Positions 2,806 through 20,159 of a stretch of 23,849 bases of DNA are shown piece by piece (the first letter of the stretch is position 1; each line of letters starts with the position of its first letter). The DNA comes from a virus, in IMG/VR virus record IMGVR_UViG_3300008106_000032, positions 1-23,849 of that record; one strand, written 5' to 3'. The notes beneath the pieces are model-generated. The model worked only from the letters and a program-made list of their open reading frames with translations, was not told where the DNA came from and ran no database searches. A program made the position numbers and the translations under genes.

Positions 2806-3851
2806 TGCCGCTGATCAACATCATATCGGAATACAAAAAGTACATCGTCATAGATGCGAATACGAAGGTGGCATCGCTCAACCCTTTTCGGGATGAAGCC
2901 GAGCAGCTTTACATGGTCGATCTACTAGGGCAGTCGTTCTATGATGAGCTTGCTGCGGCCTATGCTGCGGCTGCGGTTATCACTCCCAATGATCCTTTCG
3001 CCAGCCTTAGCGCACCTAACAAGTTATTGTTTCCGCTTATACAGCGCGCACTTGCTTACTACACGCTATTGCTGGCCATGCCGCACTTGAATGTAACGGT
3101 GGGCGAACTGGGCACACGCCAGCACCGTGGCGAAGATAGTGACCCAGCCCCCCGCTGGAAGGAAGAGAAGATGCTGATCAGCTACCTGAAAAGTGCCGAC
3201 ACGCATGCCGACAAATTGTTGGCCTATCTGGAAGCCAACGCCAGTGGATCTAATTATGCCACATGGTTCAACAGCGCATCCAATACCAAAAAGAGCGGCA
3301 TAGTAGTTTACTCCACGGCCATTGCCAGCAAGCACATCGATATCAACGAGAGTAGGCGCATCTACAAAAAGCTGCTGCCCAAAATAAAAGAGGTAGAAGT
3401 GCGCATAGTAGCCAAGCAATTGGGCGATGCGCAATACCAGCAGATTGTGACACAGTTGAAGGCAGGTACTTTATCGGCTAACAACAAGCTACTCACCGAC
3501 CTGATGGAGCCCATCATTGCCAAGCGGGCGCTCTACATGCAGCTGCCCTTTATGCGGGTGCAGATAGATGGTGGTGGCCTATGGCTTTACAGCGATTTGG
3601 ATGAAGTAAGGAAGAAGGATTTTCTAGCCGATAAAGATTCTATTGAAGAGCTGCGCGAGCAGCTGGAGGGCGATGAGGATGACGCCATTGGCTTTATTGC
3701 TGATGAAGCGCGGCTCAACCAATACCTACTCGATAACATCGATACTTACCCGCTGGTGAAGGCCAGTGGCATTTATACAAGCCAACCCGATCCGGGGCCT
3801 ACTTGGCGCCCGGCAGATCCTAACCCTGACGATAAGTTTTTTGTGGTATGA
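2805..3851 (+). CDS. Probable head-tail connector or head completion protein (DUF6712-like)
   Basis: A 348-residue, mostly helical protein immediately after portal. The start (MPLINIISEYKKYIVIDANTKVASLNPFRDEAEQLYMVDLLGQSFYDEL) is what I recall of a Bacteroidota-phage family catalogued as DUF6712: an opening 'ii..yk.yv..d.n..f..l.pyi..Ae...i...lG...y..L'. A second similar start-like segment appears mid-protein (IASKHIDINESRRIYKKLLPKIKEVEVRIVAKQLG), suggesting an internal duplication of a helical adaptor domain. The C-terminus is proline/aspartate rich (SQPDPGPTWRPADPNPDDKF). Its place between portal and lysis genes supports a neck or connector role, which is inference. It overlaps the next gene by four bases. 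Confidence 0.55.
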   Translation: MPLINIISEYKKYIVIDANTKVASLNPFRDEAEQLYMVDLLGQSFYDELAAAYAAAAVITPNDPFASLSAPNKLLFPLIQRALAYYTLLLAMPHLNVTVGELGTRQHRGEDSDPAPRWKEEKMLISYLKSADTHADKLLAYLEANASGSNYATWFNSASNTKKSGIVVYSTAIASKHIDINESRRIYKKLLPKIKEVEVRIVAKQLGDAQYQQIVTQLKAGTLSANNKLLTDLMEPIIAKRALYMQLPFMRVQIDGGGLWLYSDLDEVRKKDFLADKDSIEELREQLEGDEDDAIGFIADEARLNQYLLDNIDTYPLVKASGIYTSQPDPGPTWRPADPNPDDKFFVV

Positions 3852-10722: not shown

Positions 10723-11264
10723 GCACACCCGCGCACATTATAGCCTCACTCAACACCCTTGCCGAGCAAAAGGCGCAAGAGCTACTGGCGCGTGCCAAAA
10801 AAATACTCGACACGCCCAAGTACCGCAACTCGGGCGAGCTGGTAGATAGCCTAGAGGTAAGCGTTGAGAAAGGCACAGAAACGGAGCCACCTGTTATCAC
10901 ACTCACCTTTAGCGATCAGGGCTTTTTCCTGAGCATGAAAAACCCGAGCTGGAGCAAGGTGCCGTGGCGAAGTGGTAAGCGTGGCTTGGTGGAGTGGGTG
11001 CGCAAGCGGGGCTCTTCTTCCTTTGCTTATGTGAGCGGCTATGGCCGTGGGCAGTCTAGCAGCCTTAGCGAAGATGCCAAGGTGAAAAAGATTGCCAGTG
11101 GTATAGCGTGGGCATATCGCAACCACTCTTTGAAGTGGAAACCCAAGACGTGGAAGAAGCAAACACTGGTGAGCCTGCTTACCGAACTAAACGAACAAAC
11201 CGCCCGCGTGTGGGAAGATGGGATAGTGGTGGGGGTGGAGAGCGAGCTTTATAATAAGACGTGA
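10719..11264 (+). CDS. Putative tail completion / HK97 gp10-like protein, 181 aa
   Basis: A 181-residue basic protein placed directly before the tape measure. The N-terminal helix (IIASLNTLAEQKAQELLARAKKIL) is followed by 'NSGELVDSLEVSVEKG' and a glycine-rich loop WSKVPWRSGKRGLVEWVRKRGSSSFAYVSGYGRGQ. An N-terminal helix followed by 'S-G-x-L-x-x-S-I/L' is typical of HK97 gp10-type proteins that close the head-tail joint or the tail end, which suggested the label. The later segment (KKIASGIAWAYRNHSLKWKPKTW) is tryptophan-rich. Confidence in the family is modest; confidence that it is a real gene is high, because it overlaps the upstream gene by ATGA. Confidence 0.55.
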   Translation: MSTPAHIIASLNTLAEQKAQELLARAKKILDTPKYRNSGELVDSLEVSVEKGTETEPPVITLTFSDQGFFLSMKNPSWSKVPWRSGKRGLVEWVRKRGSSSFAYVSGYGRGQSSSLSEDAKVKKIASGIAWAYRNHSLKWKPKTWKKQTLVSLLTELNEQTARVWEDGIVVGVESELYNKT

Positions 11265-11276
11265 GATGTTAGACGT

Positions 11277-11312
11277 GAGATATGAGAGGGCGAGGCGTAT
11301 GTCTCATATCTC
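11277..11312. repeat. 11-bp perfect inverted repeat in the gap before the tape measure gene
   Basis: GAGATATGAGA (11277-11287) pairs with TCTCATATCTC (11302-11312) around 14 bases. The same gap holds a 10-base direct repeat AGACGTGAGA at 11257-11266 and 11271-11280, and TCTCAC at 11316-11321, which can pair with either copy. There is no T tract, so it may be an mRNA processing or translation-control hairpin, or simply a repeat remnant. The gap of 80 bases is one of the few in this tightly packed operon. Confidence 0.6.
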
Positions 11313-11344
11313 CTGTCTCACTACTCAATACTTGATTAAATTTT

Positions 11345-13258
11345 ATGGCCAAAGAAATTGTAGTAACCCTCGCCAATGGCGATAAAGCCGGAGAGACGCT
11401 AAAGCAGCTCACTCACCAGGCGGCAGCGTTGAAAAAAGAAATCAGCGGACTAAAGCCCGGCACGGAAGACTTTGCCAAAAGTGCGGCCAGCCTTAACAGC
11501 GTTAAGGACCGAATGGCCGACATTGATAAGCAGGTGAAGAGTACCACGCAAAGCAGCAACGCCTTCAAAGGTGCGCTGGGCGGAGTATTGAATCAGATAC
11601 CGGGCTTCTCGCAGTTAAGTGGTGCATTGGGTGCAGCGCGTGGTGGCGTGGGTGGGCTGACGAGTGGGTTTGGATTACTAAAGGGCGCCATCATTGCCAC
11701 AGGCCTTGGCGCGCTGGTTATTGCCATTGTTGGTTTGGTGAGCTGGTTTAGCAAAACAGAGGCTGGCGCCAACATGATAAGCGGAGCCATGAAAGGCATG
11801 GGCGCTGTGATCGACACGCTCATGGGCAGGCTTTTTAATTTGGGCGATACGCTAAAGCAACTCTTCTCAAACCCTATTCAATTTTTTAAGGATCTGGGCA
11901 AAGACATTGCCGAAAGCGCAAAGGAGGGCTACAATTTTGTGCAGGTGATGGATGATATCGAAGATAGGCAGAGAGACCTATCTGTACGAACAGCCGAAAA
12001 CGAATTGGCAATTGATCGCATGCTTACGCAAGCAAAAAATGTTGGCAAGAGTTATGAAGAAAGATTAGGAATATTAGATCGGGTTACAAAATTAACCCGA
12101 GAGACTTACCAAGAAGAGCTGAAGTTATCAAAGGAATCTCTTGACGCCATTGAAGCAAATATCAAAGCTGAAATGAAAAGGCAAGGTGTTACTGAAATGA
12201 CTGGTGAGAATGCGCAGAAAATTACAGATGCCAAATTAGCTTACATAGCATTGCTTGGAAAAGAACAGCAGATCGAAGATAGAGTTGCCAACTTCAAGGA
12301 GAAACTTTTTGATAAGGAAGAAAAAGCACAATTGAAATCCGCCAAGGATGCTGCTAAAAATGTCGAGAATCAAGACCTTGCCTTACAAGGAGAAATAGAA
12401 CGTGCAGACCTTGCAAATGCCCAGGAACTTGAACGCACCCAAAAACAAGAGGATGCGCTTAATGCAATTTATGACGCTAGCAGAGCCAAGAAAGCAGCCG
12501 AAGACCAAATAGCGTTTGATAAGCAAAAGGCGTTAGACGATCAGGCCATTCAAGAGAGAATGGCAAAGGCTCAGTTCGAAAAGCAGCTGGGAGATTTTAA
12601 TCTTGAAACGCAGAGACAGGTAACGGCAGGATTAGGAGACCTTATTGCTCAAAACATAAAAGACGAACAGGCCGCGAAGGTCGTAAAGAAATCTTTTGCC
12701 TTGATTGATATAGGCATACGGTTAAGCCAAGAGCTTTCTGCTAATGCTCTATCTGCGGCAGCAAACCCACTAAATGCAGTTTCATTTGGAGCTGCAGGCG
12801 CGGCTCAGTTAGCCGCGTCTAATGCTAGGTCACTGATTTTAGCGGCTATAAACACTGCAAAGGTTTTGGCTTTTGATAAGGGTGGCTATACCGGAGATGG
12901 TGGAAAGTATGACCCTGCCGGTGTGGTGCACAAGGGCGAGGTGGTGTGGAGCCAGGCGGATGTTGCACAGTTTGGTGGGGTGCGTGCAGTGGAAGCCATA
13001 CGGCCTACCTCTCGCATGAATGGCTACTACAATGGCGGGCCGGTGAGTCCTTTTAAAAACAACACTGGCAGAGCGCCTATACCTAGCGGAAATGCGGGGG
13101 GCGGCTCACCGATGGGCTTTGATATGGATGGGCTGATCGATGCAATAGACAAGAGAATTATAAGAACTGTGGGTACGCTAAAGGTGCAAAACGTGGTGAC
13201 CGAAACGCAGGATGCTATGAAGGTGGTGAACAGCATCAGGGACGAGGCGAATGTATAA
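11345..13258 (+). CDS. Tail tape measure protein
   Basis: The tape measure sets tail length and is threaded inside the tail tube. The 637 residues show the expected plan: an N-terminal coiled-coil region (residues 15-70, LKQLTHQAAALKKEIS ... MADIDKQVK), a strongly hydrophobic glycine-rich stretch (about 111-136, LLKGAIIATGLGALVIAIVGLVSWF), a long alpha-helical, charged middle (residues 200-450) and a glycine-rich C-terminal domain (FDKGGYTGDGGKYDPAGVVHKGEVV). The latter phrase is typical of tape measure C-termini. Length would predict a short tail, around 80-100 nm by the usual 1.5 angstrom per residue rule. The middle, about 11950-12870, is clearly more AT-rich and differs in codon choice from both ends, which suggests recombination within the gene. 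Confidence 0.85.
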   Translation: MAKEIVVTLANGDKAGETLKQLTHQAAALKKEISGLKPGTEDFAKSAASLNSVKDRMADIDKQVKSTTQSSNAFKGALGGVLNQIPGFSQLSGALGAARGGVGGLTSGFGLLKGAIIATGLGALVIAIVGLVSWFSKTEAGANMISGAMKGMGAVIDTLMGRLFNLGDTLKQLFSNPIQFFKDLGKDIAESAKEGYNFVQVMDDIEDRQRDLSVRTAENELAIDRMLTQAKNVGKSYEERLGILDRVTKLTRETYQEELKLSKESLDAIEANIKAEMKRQGVTEMTGENAQKITDAKLAYIALLGKEQQIEDRVANFKEKLFDKEEKAQLKSAKDAAKNVENQDLALQGEIERADLANAQELERTQKQEDALNAIYDASRAKKAAEDQIAFDKQKALDDQAIQERMAKAQFEKQLGDFNLETQRQVTAGLGDLIAQNIKDEQAAKVVKKSFALIDIGIRLSQELSANALSAAANPLNAVSFGAAGAAQLAASNARSLILAAINTAKVLAFDKGGYTGDGGKYDPAGVVHKGEVVWSQADVAQFGGVRAVEAIRPTSRMNGYYNGGPVSPFKNNTGRAPIPSGNAGGGSPMGFDMDGLIDAIDKRIIRTVGTLKVQNVVTETQDAMKVVNSIRDEANV

Positions 13259-13264
13259 GGTTGT

Positions 13265-13287
13265 GTAAGGTTGCGAAGCTACCTTAC
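13265..13287. terminator. Hairpin between convergent tape measure and moron genes
   Basis: GTAAGGT (13265-13271) pairs with ACCTTAC (13281-13287) around nine bases. It lies in the 20-base gap between two convergent stops and overlaps the moron stop codon (13279-13281). No long T tract follows on either strand, so a bidirectional terminator is suggested by position more than by strength. Confidence 0.45.
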
Positions 13288-13662
13288 TACGCAATAAAGG
13301 ATGGATAGCGCTTGAGGGGTAGCGCTGCTTTTCATTACTAGCTGGTGGGTATGTTGAAACCCTTTTTTGCTTCCAGTTGATTCGTACAGCTCAAGTAAGT
13401 TTGTCACCACTCCATCGGTAAAGTAAATGCCCTGATCACTCTTTACTCTTTTCGAGCTATTTGTTTTCCCATTGGTGATGAAAACCACAGTGCTGTCGGT
13501 AACGTTTACTCGAGTACTGAATTTATAAGTGACGTTTCCGGATGTGCTTACCTCGCATTGGTATGTTTGCCCAAAACAACTTCCAGCCATAACCAACAAT
13601 GCGGCTATCAGGCCGAGCATTAATTGGGCTTTGTAGGGGCGGAGTGGGTTGGGGTACTTCAT
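13279..13662 (-). CDS. Secreted moron protein (probable lysogenic conversion gene), 127 aa
   Basis: On the strand opposite to all surrounding late genes. I chose the ATG at 13662 because it opens directly into a signal peptide; the open frame continues upstream to 13833 but crosses the promoter and repeats. Residues 1-31 have a basic start (MKYPNPLRPYKAQ), a hydrophobic core LMLGLIAALLVMAGSCFG and then QTYQC, fitting signal peptidase I cleavage before Q32 in Bacteroidota style; the AGSC sequence is a weaker lipobox alternative. The mature part is small and beta-rich (VTYKFSTRVNVTDSTVVFITNGK). A consensus Bacteroidota promoter lies about 50 bases upstream. An independently promoted, reverse-oriented gene between late operons is the definition of a moron. 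The function of the secreted protein is unknown. Confidence 0.75.
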   Translation of the reverse strand: MKYPNPLRPYKAQLMLGLIAALLVMAGSCFGQTYQCEVSTSGNVTYKFSTRVNVTDSTVVFITNGKTNSSKRVKSDQGIYFTDGVVTNLLELYESTGSKKGFQHTHQLVMKSSATPQALSILYCVVR

Positions 13663-13714
13663 AGTGTAATACAGTTGGTGTTTTGAAATCTCAAACTTTT
13701 TGGCGACAATTGCA

Positions 13715-13881
13715 ATGTCAACAAAGTTATTCTTCAATTGTATACCCAAAAAATCAAAGAAAAAAGCAGGATGCCGATACCCGTAAGGGTCGGAACTAAA
13801 GACTATTCTACGAGTAGCACTTTGTTGACACATCCTGCCCTTTTTCTTGGTTTACAAACAAAACTTTTATGTCAACAAAGT
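13715..13881. repeat. Control region with three copies of a 12-13 base sequence
   Basis: ATGTCAACAAAGT occurs directly at 13715-13727 and at 13869-13881, and 12 bases of its complement (ACTTTGTTGACA) lie at 13819-13830. The last copy begins with the start codon of the following gene. Between them are an imperfect 23-base inverted repeat (13751-13773 with 13831-13853, 18 of 23 matching, including GCAGGATG/CATCCTGC) and an inner hairpin CCGATACCC-GTAA-GGGTCGG (13774-13793). T tracts follow the large arms on both strands. The arrangement allows several mutually exclusive stems; see findings. Confidence 0.7.
13722..13750 (-). promoter_or_regulatory. Bacteroidota consensus promoter for the moron gene
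   Basis: On the minus strand: TTTG (13750-13747), 17 bases, then TAACTTTG (13729-13722), matching the known Bacteroidota -33 TTTG and -7 TAnnTTTG boxes perfectly with normal spacing. Predicted transcription start is near 13715, giving an untranslated leader of about 50 bases before ATG 13662. The -7 box lies inside one copy of the ATGTCAACAAAGT repeat. It is expected to use the primary sigma factor and to be active in the lysogen. Confidence 0.75.
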
Positions 13882-14135
13882 CAGAAACACCGACCACCAT
13901 GCTATCTGCATGGAATGAACCCGATTTTAGCCCCACGGGCATGAAAAGCACACTGGTGCGCACCATGCTGGCTGCCGCACGGCACCCCGAGCAACTGTGC
14001 CTAACCAGCGCAGATTTTGACAATGTGGCCTACCTTACAGATTTCCTTGAGAAGGTAGAAGCCTACCAAGCCGCCCAACCCAACAAGGGCAAAATGCTAG
14101 ACGAGATGTACTCGGTCGCCATTTTTGCTTTATGA
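13869..14135 (+). CDS. Hypothetical phage protein, 88 aa, first gene of the terminase operon
   Basis: ATG 13869 opens an 88-residue protein whose stop overlaps the next start (ATGA). The sequence is MSTKSETPTTMLSAWNEPDF, then helical segments (STLVRTMLAAARHPEQLCLTSADF, YLTDFLEKVEAYQAAQ), with no membrane or signal segment. Its start codon and first four codons lie in a 12-base repeat that can pair with an upstream complement, so translation may be controlled by RNA folding. I do not recognise the family; it leads the operon that ends in large terminase. Confidence 0.65.
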   Translation: MSTKSETPTTMLSAWNEPDFSPTGMKSTLVRTMLAAARHPEQLCLTSADFDNVAYLTDFLEKVEAYQAAQPNKGKMLDEMYSVAIFAL

Positions 14136-14809
14136 TCACGCTAGAATTTGATGATGAGGGCAATGTGGTGCGCAAGCCCAAGGAAAAGAAGAGCCAGAGC
14201 TTTCACTTTGTCCCCCGTAGCCTTGGCGAAGGGGGAAAGCCACCTGCAACCGGAAACCCGCAACCGGAAACCACCAACCCATCAAACCTTGAACTTGCCA
14301 CACTGCAAGCACAGTACGCCAGCATAAAGCTGCAGCGCGATAGGCTCAGCACCAGCATTGCGCCAATGGTAGAGAGCATCCGCGTAAAGCTATTGGCCGA
14401 AAGCCCGGAACTGGCAGCGGCCTTTATGCGTGGCGATATGCCCATGCCTGAGTTGCGCGAACTGCGCGGCAAGATTGATGCCGTGCAAGAGCAGATGATG
14501 GAAGTGTTTGACAAGATTGAACACGTGAAAAAGTACGGCACGCTGCCACCACCTGCCGAGCATAAAGTGCTGAGTGGCGAAGGTGACGATATCAAGGCCA
14601 CTCGCCATGACATACGCAGGCTAGATGACCTGATCTACAAAACCAACAAAAAGCTGGAAGATGCCGTGGGCAAAACCGTAAAGGCCGACCGCAAGCTGGA
14701 TTGGATAGAAAAGAAAGCACTGGCCGAGGCACAGCGCGATGAGTTGAAGCATAAAATTAAACGATTGGAGTATGAGCAAAGAGCTAAGGCAAGCCAACAA
14801 AACGGCTGA
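14132..14809 (+). CDS. Coiled-coil phage protein carrying an in-frame palindromic insertion, 225 aa
   Basis: A 225-residue highly charged protein. Residues about 52-95 and 107-135 (RGKIDAVQEQMMEVFDKIEHVKK) and the C-terminal 170-225 region (IYKTNKKLEDAVGKTVKADRKLDWIEKKALAEAQRDELKHKIKRLEYEQ) are coiled-coil-like. Residues 24-50 (FHFVPRSLGEGGKPPATGNPQPETTN) do not resemble the rest; they are encoded by the 36-base palindromic element plus a CAACCGGAAACC tandem. The gene sits directly before small terminase, overlapping it by 38 bases. It might be a packaging accessory or scaffold-like protein, but this is only context. The frame stays open through the repeat, so the insertion appears tolerated in a low-complexity linker. 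Confidence 0.65.
   Translation: MITLEFDDEGNVVRKPKEKKSQSFHFVPRSLGEGGKPPATGNPQPETTNPSNLELATLQAQYASIKLQRDRLSTSIAPMVESIRVKLLAESPELAAAFMRGDMPMPELRELRGKIDAVQEQMMEVFDKIEHVKKYGTLPPPAEHKVLSGEGDDIKATRHDIRRLDDLIYKTNKKLEDAVGKTVKADRKLDWIEKKALAEAQRDELKHKIKRLEYEQRAKASQQNG
14201..14236 (+). repeat. 36-bp palindromic element, intragenic copy 1
   Basis: The 36 bases beginning TTTCACTTTGTCCCCC and ending GCGAAGGGGGA are identical to 20058-20093. Inside, TCCCCC (14211-14216) pairs with GGGGGA (14231-14236) around GTAGCCTTGGCGAA. In both copies the element is read in the same frame as FHFVPRSLGEGG. Related shorter copies lie outside genes at 870-895 and 988-1011. Confidence 0.85.
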
Positions 14810-19910: not shown

Positions 19911-20159
19911 ATGTACATCGTAAAATTTGAAACCCGCAAGTACGAATTCACCGACAAAGTATATGCCGATGGCCTCGCCAAAACATGGGGTGGAACCGTA
20001 GAGTACAAATCCATCTGCGGAGACCCCAACTGCCACTGCGAAACACCCTGCAAAAGTTTTCACTTTGTCCCCCGTAGCCTTGGCGAAGGGGGATCACCAG
20101 CAACTGGCAACCGGCCAGCTATTGACGAGCCTATCGATGAAATGTATTACATCAAATAA
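19911..20159 (+). CDS. Small early protein with four-cysteine cluster and palindromic insertion, 82 aa
   Basis: Two bases after the preceding stop. Residues 1-47 read MYIVKFETRKYEFTDKVY followed by GGTVEY and a cysteine cluster, C36, C41, C43 and C47 (C-x4-C-x-C-x3-C), which could bind a metal. Residues 49-60 (SFHFVPRSLGEG) come from the 36-base palindromic element at 20058-20093, and the remainder (PATGNRPAIDEPIDEMYYIK) resembles a low-complexity tail. The protein is likely 50-60 residues in its original form, extended by the repeat. Function unknown. Confidence 0.6.
   Translation: MYIVKFETRKYEFTDKVYADGLAKTWGGTVEYKSICGDPNCHCETPCKSFHFVPRSLGEGGSPATGNRPAIDEPIDEMYYIK
20058..20093 (+). repeat. 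36-bp palindromic element, intragenic copy 2
   Basis: Identical over 36 bases to 14201-14236, in the same orientation and in the same reading frame (SFHFVPRSLGEGG). TCCCCC and GGGGGA arms flank the core GTAGCCTTGGCGAA. After the element both copies continue with CCA-rich and GCAAC/TGG-type sequence, so homology extends weakly beyond it. Confidence 0.85.

Follow-up and report, generated by a model that had tools for sequence, protein, structure and literature searches.

A repeated gene-start segment in the leader of a phage accessory gene is probably part of a new on/off switch

Why does a phage gene carry an upstream copy of its own start and, between the two copies, a segment complementary to both? 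The question was raised by IMG/VR virus record IMGVR_UViG_3300008106_000032, of which positions 1 to 23,849 (the whole stretch of 23,849 nucleotides, hereafter the window) were analysed. The initial annotation had described a three-copy repeat around a start codon together with a large stem, and had proposed an RNA switch or, instead, DNA inversion. The repeat proved to be exact, with segments A and C identical in letters and B the exact complement of 12 of their bases (Table 1). Three matches to the 12-mer arose in none of 100 dinucleotide shuffles of the whole window, no A-B-C triad of 11 bases arose in 200 whole-window shuffles, and the longest triad in 2000 local shuffles reached 8 bases, compared with the 12 observed. 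The arrangement is not due to chance. The stem, whose arms had been placed at 13751-13773 and 13831-13853, was also present as a long and imperfect pairing around B. Judged from the sequence, the leader is probably a new on/off switch: positions 13691-13881 would form the structured 5' leader of a phage accessory gene and would act as a two-way (dual) attenuator.

Table 1. Positions of the leader parts, the controlled gene and neighbouring features in the window.
Feature	Position	Strand	Remarks
Box 1, TCAAACTTTTTGGCGACAATTGCA	13691-13714	+	Left end of the cassette; candidate promoter or 5' RNA end
Segment A, ATGTCAACAAAGT	13715-13727	+	Upstream copy of the gene start (ATG and 10 bases); proposed antiterminator/decoy strand
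Candidate promoter of the divergent gene (TTG, 17 bases, TAACTTTG)	13722-13749	-	Overlaps A; -7-like box at 13722-13729
Box 2, AAAATCAAAGAAA	13750-13762	+	13/13 identical in L005; also found in L194
P1, left arm of the terminator-like stem	13757-13773	+	Partner 13831-13848
Hairpin 1	13774-13793	+	GNRA tetraloop (GUAA in the window, GUGA in L005); minimum-energy folds of both phages; three two-sided pair changes
Hairpin 2	13794-13826	+	5' part of B lies in its 3' strand, and the remainder of B (GACA, 3' part) is free beside P1; seen in the minimum-energy fold of each phage
Segment B, ACTTTGTTGACA	13819-13830	+	Complementary to A and C; no spacer to the P1 right arm in both phages
P1, right arm CATCCTGC and U-rich tail CCTTTTTCTT	13831-13848	+	Terminator-like; L005 equivalents CTTCCGGC and CTTTTCTT
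A-rich leader, GGTTTACAAACAAAACTTTT	13849-13868	+	ACAAATAAAAAAAAC at the same place in L005
Segment C, letters identical to A	13869-13881	+	Contains the start codon and opening codons of the controlled gene
Controlled accessory gene (88 aa here)	13869-14135	+	Shortened form of a 126-aa orphan in L002
Junction, 174 L002 bases missing	14111-14112		Gene end and left arm of the family hairpin; from comparison with L002

Relatives of the window phage, which is a Bacteroidetes phage, were collected by the large terminase; they comprised 12 phage contigs (L002-L010, L026-L028) and two genomes that carry prophages, one labelled Cyclobacteriaceae (L030) and the other Cytophagales (L031, whose contig agrees with L006 in length and coordinates). 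The most informative was L005, the terminase of which is 72% identical to that of the window. It carries the same element anatomy in the same place in other letters, in the order TTGGCGACAATTGCA, A ATGCGAAACAACA (2854), stem GCCGGAAG/CTTCCGGC, B TGTGTTGTTTCGC (2948) directly abutting the right arm of the stem, an A-rich leader, and C ATGCGAAACAACACA (2992), which begins a 132-aa gene. The check for compensatory changes in related phages, suggested by the initial annotation, turned out in favour of pairing, since L005 alters A, B and C together: six of the 13 repeat positions (4, 5, 8, 9, 12 and 13) were changed alike in A, the reverse complement of B and C, every pairing was kept, and the gene behind them differs. 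Two-sided changes were additionally seen at five pairs, in hairpin 1 and in P1, where both sides of pairs 12-87 and 16-83 (model numbering) had changed. What the two phages have in common is P1 with a U-rich tail, the GNRA hairpin 1, a hairpin 2 that holds part of B, and a B-P1 junction of zero bases. We regard an RNA-level function of some kind as likely. The whole insert was absent from L006, the terminase of which is 89% identical to that of L005.

The 88-aa gene had been thought to lead the terminase operon, and this assignment did not survive the comparison with L002. Over the 6.3 kb compared, L002 showed no substitutions relative to the window, except for a few mismatches bordering one indel, and the two differed in their indels. 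After window position 14111, L002 holds an extra 174 bases, which comprise the remainder of a 126-aa gene and the left part of a terminator-like hairpin (GTCCTACTCAATGGCGGCTTCGGTCGCCATTTTTGCTTTATG), which precedes the next gene. In the window, the 88-aa gene is thus a deletion fusion, whether real or produced by assembly. As the L002 gene and hairpin lie between the element and the operon, and the hairpin of L005 likewise follows accessory genes, the element would control the accessory gene and not the terminase operon itself. The accessory proteins of the window and L005 had no relatives outside their own phage and were not alike, and their single-sequence structure models were too poor to use (pLDDT 61 and 52).

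In most relatives, a short terminator-like hairpin (GTCCTAAAAWTGGCGAC-loop-GTCGCCAWTTTTT) is followed by the start codon of the first terminase-operon gene, with no triad. This family hairpin (GTCCTA...GGCGAC/GTCGCC...TTTTT) was located a few bases before the start codon of that operon in L003, L006, L008-L010, L026-L028, L002 and at L005:3622. In L007, a different stem occupies the same site with matching changes (GGCCAG/CTGGCC), a compensated variant which indicates that the hairpin is conserved as a structure. It is a candidate attenuator that may keep terminase expression low. The family hairpin resembles the element in placing a terminator-like stem just before a start codon, and its letters TGGCGAC are common with box 1. 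In contrast to the element, it has no A-B-C segments, and in L005 and L002 it is present additionally, downstream of the accessory gene.

Scanning for box 1 with box 2 behind it brought to light a third homolog (L194), which sits at the end of a phage contig, L028. Only the left half is present, consisting of 24 bases before A that are all identical to box 1 of the window, A itself (GTGCAAACAGTAG), box 2 and the P1 left arm; the contig ends within the stem, and the missing half was not found at the other end of the contig. The copy lies after another gene and a terminator-like hairpin, away from the terminase operon. In L005, the last 15 bases of box 1 (18 including the ATG) are identical to the window, and a terminator-like hairpin closely precedes box 1 in both L194 and L005. 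The left half at another genome site in a third phage identifies the element as a cassette and not a terminase feature; box 1 is part of this cassette, which thus reaches beyond A and can occupy other genome sites.

This location argues against two explanations of the repeats. The first is that A and C are a target-site duplication left by a small mobile element inserted at the gene start, with B as its guide. In both phages, A matches the gene start letter for letter from the ATG onwards, as such a duplication would, yet the conserved cassette runs 24 bases to the left of A and those bases are identical at the different genome site of L194, which puts A inside the cassette. Moreover, A has similar letters in all three phages (NTG..AACA), and no empty site with a single gene-start copy was found among the relatives compared. 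A mobile element bounded by a duplicated target was therefore rejected as a candidate, the cassette extending 24 bases outside A, and we consider the duplication very improbable. The second, for which we see hardly any chance, is that the repeats are terminase binding sites or another packaging site. They do lie upstream of the terminase genes in the window, but they are absent from most related phages and prophages, a gene and a hairpin intervene between them and the terminase operon in L005 and L002, and L194 has the element elsewhere.

The initial proposal that the inverted copies are recombination sites between which the DNA flips fared no better and is, in our view, extremely unlikely. 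The A/B and B/C pairs are perfect 12-base inverted repeats, as inversion would require, but a single orientation was observed in the window, L002 and L005. The only recombinase recognised was the phage integrase, 3 kb away, and none was identified next to the element. The arms diverge between relatives, which is unexpected for recombinase sites, and flipping of the A-B segment would destroy P1 while switching no promoter or coding sequence.

The minimum-energy folds of the window and L005 leaders gave the same three-way junction, formed by P1, hairpin 1 and hairpin 2. Compared with shuffles, the whole leader of the window had a z-score of -3.2; the L005 leader showed no stability beyond that of shuffles (z = -0.41), which is a weak point. 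P1 looks like a terminator when read from either strand, and the call of the sense strand consequently depends on the GNRA loops, on the start codon and on the window z-scores (-3.2 versus -2.5). Its terminator form consists of GCAGGATG/CATCCTGC followed by CCTTTTTCTT in the window, and of GCCGGAAG/CTTCCGGC followed by CTTTTCTT in L005, with a loop of more than 50 bases that is large for an intrinsic terminator; a terminator scan covering loops of 3-8 bases did not list P1. The order and competition of the pairings were computed by nested prefix folding. When the RNA ended at B, the A:B pairing had a probability of 0.955 in the window and 0.951 in L005. Once the U-tract had been included, P1 reached 0.99 in the window and 0.83-0.93 in L005 (0.88-0.96 for longer prefixes). 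In this computation, which allows no pseudoknots and excludes P1 by A:B only for that reason, the two are mutually exclusive in both phages, the earlier pairing opposing the terminator-like stem as in an attenuator.

B:C comprises 12 pairs in the window and 13 in L005 and has zero spacer to P1, an arrangement consistent with a pseudoknot that would hide the start codon. The helix energies of A:B and B:C were approximately -15.6 kcal/mol each in the window, and -15.7 and -20.0 kcal/mol, respectively, in L005 (helix only). The pseudoknotted state of the window was estimated to be about equal in energy to the best nested fold, as a switch needs, when helix energies were combined with a penalty of 7-10 kcal/mol, our own estimate of the usual value.

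We propose the following mechanism. During RNA synthesis, B would pair first with the upstream copy A; this pairing crosses P1 and would act as an antiterminator, and would also hold B off the start codon (ON). Occupation of A, or loss of A:B, would let P1 form, and we infer that transcription would then tend to stop in the U-rich tail. In transcripts that read through, B, abutting P1, would pair with C in the cell, and the resulting H-type pseudoknot would cover the start codon together with codons 2-5 (OFF). The resemblance of A to C would follow from the need of both to pair with B, and from the fact that both outcomes of A:B loss are OFF for the gene. A signal acting on A is part of the proposal; it could conceivably be a ribosome initiating there or some other factor, since an NTG opens A in all three phages (ATG in the window, ATG in L005, GTG in L194), yet the reading frame from A is not shared, spanning 23 codons in the window and running open into C in L005. 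That the start codon is hidden by pairing seems fairly probable to us, and the complete dual-attenuator model comes slightly short of an even chance. The RNA-switch reading of the initial annotation therefore gains support from the concerted change of A, B and C, but it needs transcription attenuation by P1 to be added and a different gene to be placed under control.

A simpler version, with translation as the only controlled step, would have A:B free and B:C hide the start codon, and P1 would be a passive stem and no terminator. The concerted change of A, B and C speaks for it, as does the zero B-P1 spacer, which is found in coaxial H-type pseudoknots. Bacteroidetes have no Shine-Dalgarno sites and tune initiation by structure around the start codon (PMC6847099), which makes start-codon pairing a sensible control point and also speaks for this version. 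It is nevertheless rather unlikely, as P1 resembles an intrinsic terminator, its GC-rich stem running into a U-rich tail in each of the two phages, and as A:B competes with it in the manner of an antiterminator; because of this competition, transcription attenuation is likely besides the hiding of the start codon.

The leader might otherwise serve mainly as a small RNA ended by P1, in which B would be antisense to the start codon and act in trans on full-length transcripts, with A restraining B from within the same RNA. B can pair with the start codon and the codons after it, a usual target of bacterial small RNAs. P1 with its U-rich tail also resembles the 3' end of a small RNA, and such terminated RNAs are produced from SAM-II leaders (PMC9373788). 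However, A, which lies 90 bases upstream in the same leader, is complementary to B and would disable it, and a separate promoter was not found, so we hold this role to be improbable. On the plus strand, no TANNTTTG promoter was detected close upstream of the element (consensus TTTG/TANNTTTG, PMC6847099). The sequence that had been reported within A as the -7 box of a moron promoter is present on the minus strand as a -7-like box, with a TTG 17 bases upstream of it, but it has no counterpart in L005 and L194 and is accordingly specific to the lineage.

Under the dual-attenuator model, the element would work like known attenuators combined with leaders in which a pseudoknot hides the start. Leaders of the trp type are attenuators with mutually exclusive antiterminator and terminator. 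The same applies to ribosomal-protein leaders such as rplJL (PMC4538822). In all of these, as in the element with its A:B, an early pairing excludes a later stem with a U-rich tail. The element differs from them in having no conserved leader peptide and in that its antiterminator strand repeats the gene start, so that termination would be linked to start hiding. SAM-II riboswitches have a pseudoknot fold. In the SAM-II leaders of Sinorhizobium meliloti metA and metZ, a leader terminator is present and both transcript length and translation are controlled; in metA, the terminator lies between two AUGs (PMC9373788). The element shares these traits, the terminator and the double control in its case as predictions. 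Unlike SAM-II, it would pair the start codon itself and not a Shine-Dalgarno site, it has no Rfam match, and no ligand is known, so membership of a riboswitch class cannot be claimed. A search with Rfam 15 gave no match in the window at gathering thresholds, and none up to E 5 in 13650-13950.

Complete members were limited to the window and L005, together with the near-identical L002, and L194 was the one half member. Searches of viral contigs with the box-1 16-mer and relaxed box-1 patterns returned the triad only in the window/L002 and L005, the remaining matches being due to chance, and triad scans of the retrieved related loci yielded no further member. A covariance model of the leader core, run against 13 related records and 291 Cytophagales genomes, matched only L002 and L005, a negative result that is weak because the model was built on two rows. 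Pattern searches gave one match, taken as chance, in 390 genomes and none in 118 genomes, and a sequence search of phages and plasmids gave nothing convincing. We tentatively suggest, at somewhat less than an even chance, that the element belongs to an undescribed class of phage leader RNAs: a cassette which brings its own start codon and first codons, in which one 12-base segment couples termination to start hiding by means of a decoy, and behind which non-homologous genes can be placed. Leader-RNA control is little charted in phages of Bacteroidetes, the hosts being those without Shine-Dalgarno sites. If the model is true, a single strand decides both whether the transcript is completed and whether the start codon is open, and the element shows how such phages keep cargo genes quiet. 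The leader is compact and simple enough for direct testing and for reuse as a genetic part in laboratory strains.

Several further observations were made at these loci. In L028, which carries the third element elsewhere, a box-1-like sequence (TTTTTTTGGCGACAATTAGACCTATGGAGGTC) lies at 3343-3490, directly before a small membrane-protein gene and without A-B-C. The divergent accessory gene of the window (13279-13665, minus strand) has the tape measure gene on one side and the terminase operon on the other, and it differs in many relatives; this site, with the matching place in L004-L007, L010 and L030, appears to be a cargo hot spot. Across 11250-14350, the indels between the window and L002 comprised 96 bases in the tape measure gene, the 174 bases after 14111, and 103 bases beside a palindromic repeat, and they reflect either fast indel variation or assembly faults. 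The palindromic repeat (TTTCACTTTGTCCCCCGTAGCCTTGGCGAAGGGGGA) occurs at 14193-14236 and 20050-20093 (93% identical), within two unrelated reading frames, in both of which it is translated in frame as FHFVPRSLGEGG. A looser copy is found at 969-1012, and the repeat resembles palindromic elements that insert into coding genes.
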